A stretch of 64,000 bases of DNA from Aeromicrobium massiliense JC14 (GTDB lineage Bacteria > Actinomycetota > Actinomycetes > Propionibacteriales > Nocardioidaceae). Both the position numbers and the translations under genes were made by a program. This document shows, in pieces, positions 10,504 to 36,443 of the stretch. Numbering within the stretch: position 1 is the stretch's first letter; each line of letters begins with the position of its first letter. The notes below the pieces were generated by a model that saw nothing but the letters and a program-made list of their open reading frames with translations, had not been told where the DNA came from and ran no database searches. The DNA is taken from positions 146,093 through 210,092 of the forward strand of contig NZ_HE978636.1 of the NCBI RefSeq assembly GCF_000312105.1. Direction: 5' to 3'.

Positions 10504-10865
10504 TCGGGGCCGAACTTCTCCGACGGCGGCCGTAACCGCGCCGCGAGCCCGGTCGTTGGACGAAGTGATCTGACAACCTCTCCCTCCCGTTGGATCAGGC
10601 ACCCGGCCCCGTCCGGATGCCCTGCAGAGCCCGGTCCGAGACCTCCCTCCCGGCCGGGCTCTGCTGCGCGGTGGGGGGGGTCCTGTGGACCTGTCGGTTT
10701 CCCTGGGCCCCAGGGAAACCGACAAACCCCGTGGAAGTTTCCAGGGGATCTGCAGGTTTCCCCGGGTTCTGCTGTTTCCATCCCCAGCACAGGACGTCAT
10801 CCGGCCGCTCCACAGCTCCGCGGCGGGGCACAAACGGCTCCGGTCGCTCCCGCCAGAGTCACGGC
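10504..10865. other. 362-bp gene-free region between guaA and the AbiEi-like gene
   Basis: It carries the upstream part of the guaA promoter, the palindrome at 10692-10724, and two further nearby echoes of its GTTTCC half (10737-10742 and 10754-10759). A CAGAGT at 10854-10859 lies six bases before the next ATG and may be its -10 box. A run of eight G lies at 10673-10680. I see no credible gene. Confidence 0.6.
10692..10724. repeat. 33-bp perfect palindrome, left copy of a bracketing pair
   Basis: Sixteen-base arms around a single central base: TGTCGGTTTCCCTGGG, C, and its complement. A nearly identical palindrome lies at 11869-11904, so the pair flanks exactly one gene (10866-11825). No T run follows on either strand, so it is not a textbook terminator. 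Confidence 0.85.
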
Positions 10866-11868: not shown

Positions 11869-11904
11869 TTGTCGGTTTCCCTGGGGCCCCAGGGAAACCG
11901 ACAA
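11869..11904. repeat. 36-bp perfect palindrome, right copy of a bracketing pair
   Basis: Eighteen-base arms with no spacer. Compared with 10692-10724 the arms are the same, but the centre reads GGGGCCCC instead of GGGCCCC and there is one extra base pair outside. It lies between the convergent ends of the AbiEi-like gene and the GMC oxidoreductase gene, so it could also act as a two-way transcription stop. Confidence 0.85.
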
Positions 11905-33348: not shown

Positions 33349-34503
33349 ATGGACCTGCCCACGTTCGAGCGCCTGCTGACCCCCGAGGGACAGGACCTGC
33401 TGGCCGAGGTGCACGCCCGCGCCGGCGTCGAGAGCGACCTCGCGCTCGGCACCCGGCTGCGCCGCTCGCACCCGGTCGAGCTCGTCGCCGCGGCCGTCAC
33501 CCAGAACCACCTGCGCGGCCTGGCCCGGCGCAAGCTCGGCGACGACGCCGCCCGCATGTACTTCACCCATGACGCGCTCGAGCAGGCCACACGGGCGTCC
33601 GTGGCCGACCACCGCGCGCGCCGGCTGGCCGCGTCCGGCATCGACGCGGTGACCGACCTGGGGTGCGGCATCGGCGGCGACCTGGTGGCGTTCGCCCGCG
33701 CCGGGCTGCGCGTCCGCGGCGTCGAGCTCGACCCCGTGCGGGCGGCGATCGCGCGGGCCAACCTCGAGGCCCTCGGCCTCGACGGCACCGTCGACGTCGC
33801 CGACGCCACGCAGGTGGACGTCCCCGACGACGAGGCGGTCTTCCTCGACCCGGCCCGGCGCGACGGGCGCGGGCGCGTCTTCGACCCCGAGCGCATGACG
33901 CCGCCCTGGCACGTCGTGACCGCCCGGCTGCGGGGGCTCGCCGTGGTCAAGACGATGCCCGGGATCGGGCACGACGTGGTGCCCGACGGCGTCGAGGCCG
34001 AGTGGGTCAGCGACGGCGGCTCGCTCGTCGAGGCGTGCCTGTGGGGCGTCCCGCTGGCCGCCGTCGAGCGCCGCGCGACGGCACTGCCGGCCGGGGCCGA
34101 GCTGGTGGCTCGCGACGAGGCTCCCGTCGTCGGCCCGGTCGGCGGCTTCCTGCACGAGCCCGACGACGCGGTGATCCGCGCGGGACTCGTCGCCGAGCTC
34201 GCCGCGGACCTCGGCGGGCACCTGGTCGACCCGCACATCGCCTACGTGACGACCGACGCCCAGGTCACCACTCCCCTGGCCGCGTCGTTCCGCGTCGTCC
34301 GGGAGCTGCCCTTCCGCGAGAAGCCGCTCAAGGCCGCGCTGCAGGACCTCGACGTCGGCACGCTCACGATCAAGAAGCGCGGCGTCGACGTCGTCCCCGA
34401 GCAGCTCGTGAAGCGGCTCAAGCTGAAGGGACGCGTCACCGCCACCGTCGTCATGACCCGGGTCGACGGCGAGGGCACCGCGCTCCTGGTCGAGCGCCTC
34501 TGA
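33349..34503 (+). CDS. Class I SAM-dependent methyltransferase with THUMP-like C-terminus
   Basis: 384 residues. SAM-binding motif I is VTDLGCGIGGDLVAFARAG with motif II VRGVELDPVRAAIARANLEAL, and VFLDPARRDGRGRVFDP forms motif IV. The C-terminal part (FREKPLKAALQDLDVGTLTIKKRGVD) matches the THUMP-like domain seen in this actinobacterial family; an RNA or tRNA substrate is likely but unproven. No ribosome site is evident; GAGAAT lies six bases before the ATG, so the mRNA may be leaderless. It is divergent from groES and shares its control region. Confidence 0.85.
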   Translation: MDLPTFERLLTPEGQDLLAEVHARAGVESDLALGTRLRRSHPVELVAAAVTQNHLRGLARRKLGDDAARMYFTHDALEQATRASVADHRARRLAASGIDAVTDLGCGIGGDLVAFARAGLRVRGVELDPVRAAIARANLEALGLDGTVDVADATQVDVPDDEAVFLDPARRDGRGRVFDPERMTPPWHVVTARLRGLAVVKTMPGIGHDVVPDGVEAEWVSDGGSLVEACLWGVPLAAVERRATALPAGAELVARDEAPVVGPVGGFLHEPDDAVIRAGLVAELAADLGGHLVDPHIAYVTTDAQVTTPLAASFRVVRELPFREKPLKAALQDLDVGTLTIKKRGVDVVPEQLVKRLKLKGRVTATVVMTRVDGEGTALLVERL

Positions 34504-34514
34504 CCCGTCCCCTC

Positions 34515-34616
34515 ACCCGAGCCCCGCGCTGCCGAGATGTGGGGAGAAAAGAACCGCGTCCGGACGGATCGTGGTTCATTTCTCCCCACATCTCGCCGGA
34601 GGACGGCAGGGTGAGG
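34515..34616. repeat. ~100-bp hairpin repeat, left copy
   Basis: The core is a long hairpin: 17 bp pairing 34533-34549 with 34579-34595, plus an inner stem of about 8 bp (34551-34558 with 34570-34577, one wobble) and an 11-base loop. The whole unit is about 93 percent identical by hand alignment to 35291-35393. The pair flanks exactly one gene. No transposase is present. Confidence 0.85.
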
Positions 34617-34619
34617 CCC

Positions 34620-35291
34620 ATGAGCGACCTCCAGCGCTTCGTGCGCGGCCTCGTCGTCGGCTGCTTCGCGTTCGCCGCCCTGCTGGGCGTCGTCGTTCTC
34701 GTGGTGGGCCGGTCGATCGGCGAGACCGAGCTCCGCGTCCTGGCCACGACGACCACCGTCGGGGTCGAGAGCGTCGCCGTCCTGGCCTACCTTGCCGCGG
34801 CCCGGGTCGGCCACCCACTGCCCGCCGCGGCCGGCGGAGCCGTCTCGCTCGTGGCCACCGGCCTCGTGCTGTGGCTCGTCTGGGGCGGCGAGCCGACCGG
34901 CGACGCGGTCTGGAACGTGCTGTGGACCGCCGTCGCGGTCGCCGTGGCCCTCGCGCAGGTCTGTCTGCTGCTGTCGGCCACCGGCGGGCACGTCCGCGAC
35001 GAGGCGCTCATGCTGGCGACGTTCGCGGCGACGGCCGTCCTGACCGGGCTGCTCGTCGGACCGCTGTGGGCGGCCGAGGGCGCCGGGACGTTCGACGGCT
35101 ACGGGCGCGTGCTGGGCGTCGTGGCGATCCTCGACGTGCTGGGCACCGTCGTGGTGGCCGCGACCCGCCGCCGTCCGGCCGTCGACGCCGTCCGGACGTC
35201 CCTCTCGGCCGAGTCGCGCCGCCGGCTCGAGGACGTGGCGCGCACCCGCGGCGTCACGCCGGACCAGCTCGTCGACGACCTGCTCCGCTGA
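34620..35291 (+). CDS. Uncharacterised membrane protein between two hairpin repeats
   Basis: 223 residues with about six membrane helices (LVVGCFAFAALLGVVVLVVG; VGVESVAVLAYLAAA; AVSLVATGLVLWLVW; VLWTAVAVAVALAQVCLLL; LMLATFAATAVLTGLLV; VLGVVAILDVLGTVVVAA) and a cytoplasmic tail SAESRRRLEDVARTRGVTPDQLVDDLLR that looks like a small helical, perhaps ribbon-helix-helix-like segment. I do not recognise the family. The likely ribosome site AGGGTGAGG lies at the end of the left repeat, and the stop codon touches the first base of the right repeat. Confidence 0.8.
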   Translation: MSDLQRFVRGLVVGCFAFAALLGVVVLVVGRSIGETELRVLATTTTVGVESVAVLAYLAAARVGHPLPAAAGGAVSLVATGLVLWLVWGGEPTGDAVWNVLWTAVAVAVALAQVCLLLSATGGHVRDEALMLATFAATAVLTGLLVGPLWAAEGAGTFDGYGRVLGVVAILDVLGTVVVAATRRRPAVDAVRTSLSAESRRRLEDVARTRGVTPDQLVDDLLR

Positions 35292-35393
35292 CCCGAGCCC
35301 CGCGCTGCCGAGATGTGGGAAGAAAAGAACCACGTCCGGGCGGATCGTGGTTCTTCTCTCCCCACATCTCGCCGGAGGGACGGCGGGGTGAGG
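35291..35393. repeat. ~100-bp hairpin repeat, right copy
   Basis: Same orientation and nearly the same sequence as 34515-34616, with about six substitutions and one inserted base. Arms run 35309-35334 and 35346-35371 with a few mismatches. It lies between the membrane protein stop and the convergent tsaD stop, so it may also end transcription there. Confidence 0.85.
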
Positions 35394-35396
35394 GGC

Positions 35397-36443
35397 CTAG
35401 GCGGCGAGGACCTGGCTGACCGGCATGCTCGAGTCGACGGCCAGGTCGAGCCGCGACGGCTCCAGACCACGGCGGACGACCTCGCTGCCGAGCGCCGCGA
35501 TCATCGCGCCGTTGTCGGTGCACAGCACCGGCGGCGGGACCCGCAGCTCGACGCCGGCCTTCTTGGCCCGCTCCTCGGCGTACTCGCGCAGCCGCCGGTT
35601 CGCGGCCACGCCGCCGCCCAGCACGAGCCGCTTCACGCCGTGCTCGACGCACGCGTCGATCGTCTTGGCGGTCAGCACGTCGCACACGGCGTCCTGGAAC
35701 GAGGCCGCGACGTCGGCGACGGCGAACGAGCGACCCATCCGCTCCTCGTGCTGGACGTGCCGCACGACGGCGCTCTTGAGCCCGGAGAACGAGAAGTCGA
35801 AGCGGTGCTTCTCCATGTCGCGGCCGGTGGTCAGGCCGCGCGGGAAGGAGATCGCCTTCGGGTCGCCCTCGCGGGCGGCGCGGTCGATGTGCGGCCCGCC
35901 CGGGTACGGCAGGCCGAGCACGCGGGCCACCTTGTCGAACGCCTCGCCGGCCGCGTCATCGATCGTCTCGCCGAGCAGCTGGACGTCGGTGACGATGTCG
36001 TCGACGAGCAGCAGCGACGTGTGCCCGCCGCTCACCAGCAGGGCCGCGGTGCGCTCGTCGTAGCGGCCGTGCTCGAGCTGGTCGACCGCGACGTGGCCGA
36101 CCAGGTGGTTCACGCCGTAGAGCGGCTTGTCGTAGGCCAGCGCGAGCGCCTTGGCTGCGGCCACGCCGACCAGCAGCGCACCGGTGAGCCCGGGGCCGCA
36201 GGTGACGGCGATCGCGTCGACGTCCTTCACGTGCACGCCGGAGTCGCAATAGGCCTGCTCGAGCGTCGGCACCATCGCCTCCAGGTGCGCCCGGCTGGCG
36301 ACCTCCGGGACGACGCCGCCAAAGCGGACGTGCTCCTCCATGCTCGAGGAGACCGCGTTGGCCAGCAGCTCCGTGCCGCGCACGATGCCGACGCCGGTCT
36401 CGTCGCAGGAGGACTCGATGCCGAGGACGAGGGGTTCGCTCAC
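35397..36443 (-). CDS. tsaD: tRNA N6-adenosine threonylcarbamoyltransferase TsaD
   Basis: 348 residues. N-terminal ASKHA signature [16 protein letters not shown], the family [14 protein letters not shown] and the metal-binding histidines in [15 protein letters not shown]-terminal [16 protein letters not shown]. It transfers the threonylcarbamoyl group to A37 of ANN-decoding tRNAs and works with TsaB and TsaE, encoded upstream on the same strand. GTG start at 36443. Confidence 0.97.

Follow-up and report, generated by a model that had tools for sequence, protein, structure and literature searches.

Two Hairpin Copies Adjoin Both Ends of a Membrane Protein Gene

When a single gene lies between two direct copies of a hairpin repeat, the question arises whether the repeats brought the gene or have another role. 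Such a locus was found in the window, a 64-kb stretch of the Aeromicrobium massiliense JC14 genome (G000), where an open frame for a membrane protein of 223 aa with several hydrophobic segments (34620..35291, + strand) lies between a left hairpin copy (34511..34616, +) and a right copy in the same orientation (35287..35393, +). The two copies scored 97.1 and 94.4 bits, respectively, with R1, a covariance model of the family; their limits were set by the conserved ends CCTCACC...GGTGAGG, and the right copy starts with GCTGACC. The left neighbour is a class I methyltransferase gene with a THUMP-like C terminus (33349..34503, +; the start is that of the gene caller used), and the right neighbour is the convergent tsaD (35397..36443, −), identified by protein scan.

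The preliminary description had reported direct hairpin repeats of about 100 bp around the membrane gene. This was borne out by an ungapped match of 93% over 95 nt (34508-34602 vs 35284-35378) and by folding, which gave one long hairpin per copy (left, −75.7 kcal/mol; right, −65.0 kcal/mol). The left copy consists of outer arms (CCTCACCCGAGCC.../...GGTGAGG), collars (GAGATGTG/CACATCTC) and a variable centre. Collars and centre together form its core stem-loop (34533..34595, +), whose 26-nt arms (34533-34558/34570-34595) are 92% complementary; the core stem-loop of the right copy (35309..35371, +) was placed relative to the left copy, within an inverted repeat that is 74% complementary over 50-nt arms. 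The repeats had also been said to abut the start and stop codons, and they do so closely: the left copy stops three bases short of the ATG at 34620, the TGA (35289-35291) falls within the opening bases of the right copy, and another three bases lie between the right copy and the tsaD stop. The GGTGAGG right before the membrane-gene ATG could, judged by its sequence, be a candidate ribosome site.

With the left copy as query, the blastn match to the right copy had an E value of 8.4e-39. Of the 24 other places, 17 were matched too, with E values from 3.8e-23 to 3.3e-4, and chance likeness of the copies is thereby excluded. The two copies at the locus are identical at 0.93 of positions in the left arm, 0.90 in the inner part and 0.88 in the right arm, and each is the closest copy to the other in all three parts, the left arm of the left copy being tied with a copy of a related genome, G062. 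Local duplication or conversion is thus indicated. No match reached the Rfam gathering score in the 64-kb window.

The window holds a second palindrome, at 10692-10724 and 11869-11904 (GTTTCCCTGGG..CCCAGGGAAAC). It belongs to a separate dispersed family with seven exact-pattern places in the genome; the preliminary description had already noted that the repeats at 10.7-11.9 kb differ in sequence. Four of these places are convergent (three of the five fetched, together with the right window copy), two are same-direction and one, the left window copy, is divergent.

The Hairpins Belong to a Dispersed Family at Gene Ends

A genome-wide count of the repeat had been proposed as a check, and the search of the 3.32-Mb genome with R1 gave 53 matches on both strands, which correspond to 26 places and one weak match (C1:892656, E 0.37) that was excluded from copy counts. 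The family unit is a near-palindrome of ~107 nt. In an alignment of 19 copies, including copies with poorly matching outer arms, the outer ends read CCTCACC/GGTGAGG, the collars are close to GAGATGTG/CACATCTC, and the centre varies around a conserved ACC/GGT. Pairing is conserved in the family: 83.1% of the cells of a 44-pair structure were paired vs 76.9% in shuffles, and the covariation score of 0.241 exceeded both the shuffled value (0.140) and those obtained by sliding the partner (0.060-0.100). Two of the five covariation measures were no better than in shuffles: pairs with two-sided change numbered 17 vs 16.1, a value reached in 205 of 500 shuffles, and further pair types 46 vs 43.5, reached in 122 of 500.

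At E 0.01 or better, R1 matched 25 of 58 genomes, which comprise the genome itself, 23 of 36 other genus members and one of 21 genomes of other families outside the genus, the last at E 0.0024. G062, searched apart with the same model, gave 58 matches on both strands, or ~29 places, with the weakest at E 0.28. Among the relatives, 24 of 28 hairpin loci were counted; the omitted ones were two short or edge loci, one duplicate, and L096, which is distinct and divergently placed. Collars recurred in 17 of these 24 loci by a simple motif rule, the loci having been preselected by R1, and 15 of the 24 were convergent, while arms and centres looked species-specific. Among the titles and abstract openings listed in a literature search, none was about this repeat.

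The copies occupy particular positions relative to genes. Neighbouring genes were called with a codon-based caller, which recovered the expected genes in the region. Eighteen of the 26 copies lie between convergent genes, seven between same-direction genes and one between divergent genes, whereas only 12.5% of the background gene pairs without a copy are convergent (7/65 in the window and 27/207 in 23 loci; p 3e-11). For 14 of these 18 convergent copies, each edge of the element came to within 12 nt of the called gene end on its side, counting small overlaps. There are three pairs of copies ~0.8 to 1 kb apart, each with one gene between them. Besides the pair at the membrane gene, C1:137322/138368 encloses a gene with a weak nuclease-like match and has one partner degraded in G062, and C2:417362/418353 encloses a methyltransferase gene and is present as a pair in G062. 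Since the enclosed genes of the three pairs are unrelated, the bracketed gene does not represent a shared system.

Outer Arms Are Orthologous by Site and Centres Hardly So

G062, the genome of a sister species, is much the nearest among 49 genus genomes, with 99% identity in tsaD (next, 82-83%) and 94% in the methyltransferase. An orthology set of 22 sites was assembled from 21 places paired between G000 and G062 by their flanks (median flank identity 93.8%) and the right copy at the membrane gene, whose G062 site is shared by the left copy. With inner and outer limits that were chosen after the sequences had been seen, the identity between true partners was 0.796 vs 0.703 permuted in the outer arms (z 9.7, p 0.0000 in 10000 permutations) and 0.690 vs 0.661 permuted in the central 49 nt (z 2.6, p 0.004). 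The nearest neighbour of the centre, among 44 sequences, was a copy of the same genome in 33, the orthologue in 2 and another copy of the other genome in 9, the poor automatic centre of the degraded G062 copy at C1:137322 being kept in the counts; for the outer arms the corresponding numbers were 17, 20 and 7. As a function of distance from the loop, the orthology excess followed a noisy profile; most bins were at 0.01-0.10 within 36 nt and at 0.11-0.25 farther out, with the first bin right of the loop as an exception (0.15). In 42 matches of flanking genes, identity at fourfold-degenerate sites was 77.6% (71.9% for tsaD plus the methyltransferase), which places the outer arms near that level and the ungapped central bins (within 24 nt of the loop; identity 0.44-0.62) below it. 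These results demonstrate that outer arms are orthologous by site and centres hardly so.

A strict class of centres required GGACGC close to the left edge and GCGTCC close to the right one, and at the 22 sites it was found in both species at 4, in neither at 12 and in one only at 6 (3 each way). A looser rule gave 7 discordant sites, one of which was a chance loop match. The two species thus share this class but carry it at different sites, which makes an exchange of centres after their separation probable. Centres outside the strict class were typed by visual inspection, by which the G062 centres at C2:89812 and C2:418353 also have an inverted orientation with respect to their arms. At C1:12419 in G062 the middle of the hairpin is gone and its ends are kept. 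At C1:430594 G062 carries a different hairpin, built on GAGCCTGTCGAAG/CTTCGACAGGCTC (L294, C11:267442-268940), and for C3:224946 no counterpart was located among the G062 stretches fetched.

Comparison With Mobile Miniatures and Terminators

A family of this kind could have arisen by movement of whole hairpins, as in miniature inverted-repeat elements (MITEs), with a transposase acting in trans and whole-copy turnover at gene ends. The dispersal of many copies near 107 nt, the matching terminal inverted repeats CCTCACC/GGTGAGG (84.1% of cells in the outer helix are paired) and the species-specific forms in relatives are consistent with such an origin, which we nevertheless consider rather unlikely on several grounds. 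No clear target duplication accompanies the 26 copies at lengths 2-9, the largest excess over shuffled flanks being ~1.6 sd. The absence of a transposase noted in the preliminary description held up: none was found among four scanned proteins (the membrane protein and three neighbours), and the Y1 transposase model PF01797 had no match in the genome itself, while 5 of 14 control genomes were positive. Mobilisation of the hairpins by a Y1/RAYT enzyme was rejected, as the genome has no such gene. Besides the site of the membrane gene, flanking sequence tied 21 of the 26 places to a G062 counterpart, one of which is degraded, indicating that those sites predate the split. Finally, arms stay at the site while centres change, whereas jumps of whole elements would move the arms too.

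The Correia/NEMIS repeats of Neisseria, ~107 and 155 bp long, have stem-loops that were proposed as RNase III substrates (PMC2229807), and they resemble the present copies in length, long stem-loop and dispersal. They differ in that a table in that paper gives target duplications and TA termini for NEMIS, while no clear duplication accompanies the present family; nor do the available passages of PMC2229807 describe an exchange of centres against fixed arms. REP sequences, according to PMC3733652, are short-stemmed units of 20-40 bp that carry a GTAG or CGTC tag, and families of the GTAG kind are linked to Y1-type transposases; GTAG and CGTC palindromes lie mostly downstream of genes, convergent or same-direction, and form many species- or genus-specific families. 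Placement downstream of genes and restriction to a species or genus are shared by the present family, but its arms of ~50 nt and its ~107-nt unit with CCTCACC/GGTGAGG ends are unlike the tagged 20-40 bp unit, and the genome is without a Y1_Tnp match. In length and position the copies are like NEMIS-type miniatures and REPs, but of the defining marks of these kinds a clear target duplication, a Y1 transposase and a short tagged unit are absent.

Bidirectional intrinsic terminators are found between convergent stop codons and have a GC-rich stem. The present hairpins share the convergent placement and the GC-rich stem, with T-runs on both strands in 6 of the 26 copies, but their stem is far longer and their primary sequence is common across sites. 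A hairpin-plus-T-run rule was satisfied on at least one strand by 9 of the 26 copies and on neither strand by 17, and it detected no terminator in 34400-35500; a plain T-run terminator thus fits only a minority of the copies, and neither of those at the membrane gene. We also considered whether the hairpins are terminators that each evolved in place under selection for pairing, their likeness being a product of shared selection with no copying. Such an origin would account for the convergent 3' position, the pairing that has been kept, the T-runs on both strands in the minority given above, and the different hairpins at the same tsaD junction in G017 and G059. It would not account for an arm sequence that, in the 19-copy alignment, is common to unrelated sites well beyond what pairing needs, nor for a centre class that both species have at different sites in each, and we judge it improbable.

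Distribution of the Membrane Protein Gene

Pfam assigned no family to the membrane protein at cut-off, and a protein search gave at least 153 homologues. Two homologues at 83% identity, among the matches listed, are on contigs of 1253 and 2458 bases, and some homologues have a ribbon-helix-helix domain (RHH_1 in P0059). A few of the homologues are named Nocardioides or Marmoricola. Nine of the 36 other genus genomes have a homologue of the membrane gene, at 33-49% identity. The gene lies directly between the methyltransferase gene and tsaD in G009, G036 and G022; it is separated from the methyltransferase gene by three other genes in G013 and G027 and by an ABC transporter gene in G024, where ~2.3 kb lie between the membrane gene and tsaD; and it is beside tsaD in G019, G030 and G001, in which the examined stretch is without the methyltransferase gene. 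R1 found no family hairpin adjoining the membrane gene in any of these nine relatives, and its sole match in their loci was on the far side of tsaD in G019 (L035, E 6.6e-5).

Other repeats were seen around these genes. G009 and G013 have other repeats after the membrane gene; by eye, the gap between it and tsaD in G013 and G009 (L128, L233) holds a third repeat kind of GGTAGSTGRKCAACC-like units, partly inverted. A TATGCNATGCTTCGG-like stretch stands just before the membrane gene in three relatives (L235, L236, L233; by eye); the left hairpin of G000 occupies its place, so that expression of the membrane gene may differ. Downstream of tsaD in G017 and G059 (L234, L237), GAGATTTGCTC/GAGCAAATCTC hairpins lie between tsaD and a convergent gene; they resemble the family collars with T for G, and the one in L237 is an R1 match at E 0.0011.

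Eight of the nine carriers of the membrane gene are represented in a tsaD tree built from 33 genomes, where they are scattered over deep forks. A tree of the membrane gene itself had poor resolution and a long-branch warning; it placed G000 outside a G009-G036-G022 clade, unlike the tsaD tree, a discordance that may reflect transfer of the gene. G031 has the methyltransferase gene and tsaD adjacent with no membrane gene between them, and retains, by eye, upstream sequence like that of G009. The simplest reading of these sequences is that the membrane gene is old in the genus and has often been lost.

The gap between the methyltransferase gene and tsaD in G062 provided the empty site that had been suggested as a check: the junction, read directly, contains one hairpin and no membrane gene. 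One protein search, run without a positive control, found no homologue elsewhere in G062. The junction alone fits a deletion in G062 or an insertion in G000 alike. As the gene is old in its place, loss in G062 is a simpler account than gain in G000, and loss seems likelier than insertion of a cassette. The cassette-like reading at which the preliminary description hinted stood only as far as the apparent empty site. The observations which that description had itself named as speaking against it were largely made, in that the gene occurs free of these repeats in the same neighbourhood in 9 of 36 other genus members, and 24 further copies of the repeat exist, 17 of them between other convergent genes. 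These two findings indicate that the repeats are probably not the carriers of the gene; they probably did not bring it, and here may only ease its loss.

An integron attC site is an imperfect palindrome that has both conserved and variable parts and adjoins one gene. The present copies share these traits, but they stand at the ends of unrelated chromosomal genes with no cassette array, and a gene mobile with its palindrome is at odds with the nine relatives, in which the gene lacks this palindrome. We consider a joint entry of the gene and one repeat into G000 very unlikely, whether as an integron cassette or as a composite flanked by repeats; either would have left a repeat on each side. The one-hairpin site of G062, the 93% likeness of the direct copies and the poorly resolved gene tree that separates G000 from the G009 clade would suit such an entry. 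Against it stand the gene without these repeats in the same neighbourhood in nine relatives across the tsaD tree (eight in the tree), for which a gene cassette was rejected as the main explanation, the apparent upstream sequence of the gene kept in G031 (by eye), and the unrelated genes of the two other copy pairs.

A Proposed Explanation for the Hairpins

The explanation we favour, with a confidence only a little better than even, builds on the anatomy, copy number, position, conserved pairing and arm orthology described above. In this actinobacterial genus, dispersed ~107-nt near-palindromes would mark the 3' ends of genes, mainly convergent ones; their centres would be broken and recopied while their arms stay with the site; and the membrane gene would lie between duplicated or converted copies and have been lost in G062 by recombination. 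As RNA, the hairpin would close both transcripts of a convergent pair, acting as a bidirectional terminator or as a protector of 3' ends. As DNA, a long palindrome would tend to break or be misreplicated at its tip. With another copy as the repair template, engaged through the common collars and arms, the centre would be replaced and the site-specific outer arms left in place. The old membrane gene may have come between two similar copies through local duplication or conversion of one of them, and recombination between the direct copies would be the simplest route to the one hairpin without a gene in G062.

The G062 hairpin whose middle is gone and whose ends are kept counts in favour of this explanation. 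On the other side of the balance, 17 of 44 outer arms have their nearest neighbour in the same genome, and the inner parts keep a weak, non-zero orthology signal; both count against the proposed explanation. In its favour too, the genome has a pair of Mre11/Rad50-like nuclease genes with products of 371 and 863 aa (L302); the nuclease match is below the curated SbcD cut-off, and the pair may be of the YhaO/YhaN type. PMC3733652 states that SbcCD removes such structures in E. coli and that the shortest duplex stem required is between 8 and 16 bp.

A bolder form of this explanation can be offered tentatively, as a possibility that we hold to be clearly short of even. The outer arms would have been kept by site across the species split while centres were rewritten from other copies and evolved in concert within each genome. 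The likely driver would be cleavage of the extruded tip followed by ectopic repair via the collars, perhaps with a dedicated nuclease, a process that would be homing-like and act on terminators.

Dispersed palindromes are usually accounted for as terminators or as mobile miniatures, and arms inherited by site together with centres that cross between sites would separate these two ideas. The locus in the window also cautions against taking any gene enclosed by two hairpins for a cassette. If the proposed explanation is true, the family would preserve traces of natural breaks at hairpin tips and of their ectopic repair, in a genome whose ~26 copies are few enough for direct tests.
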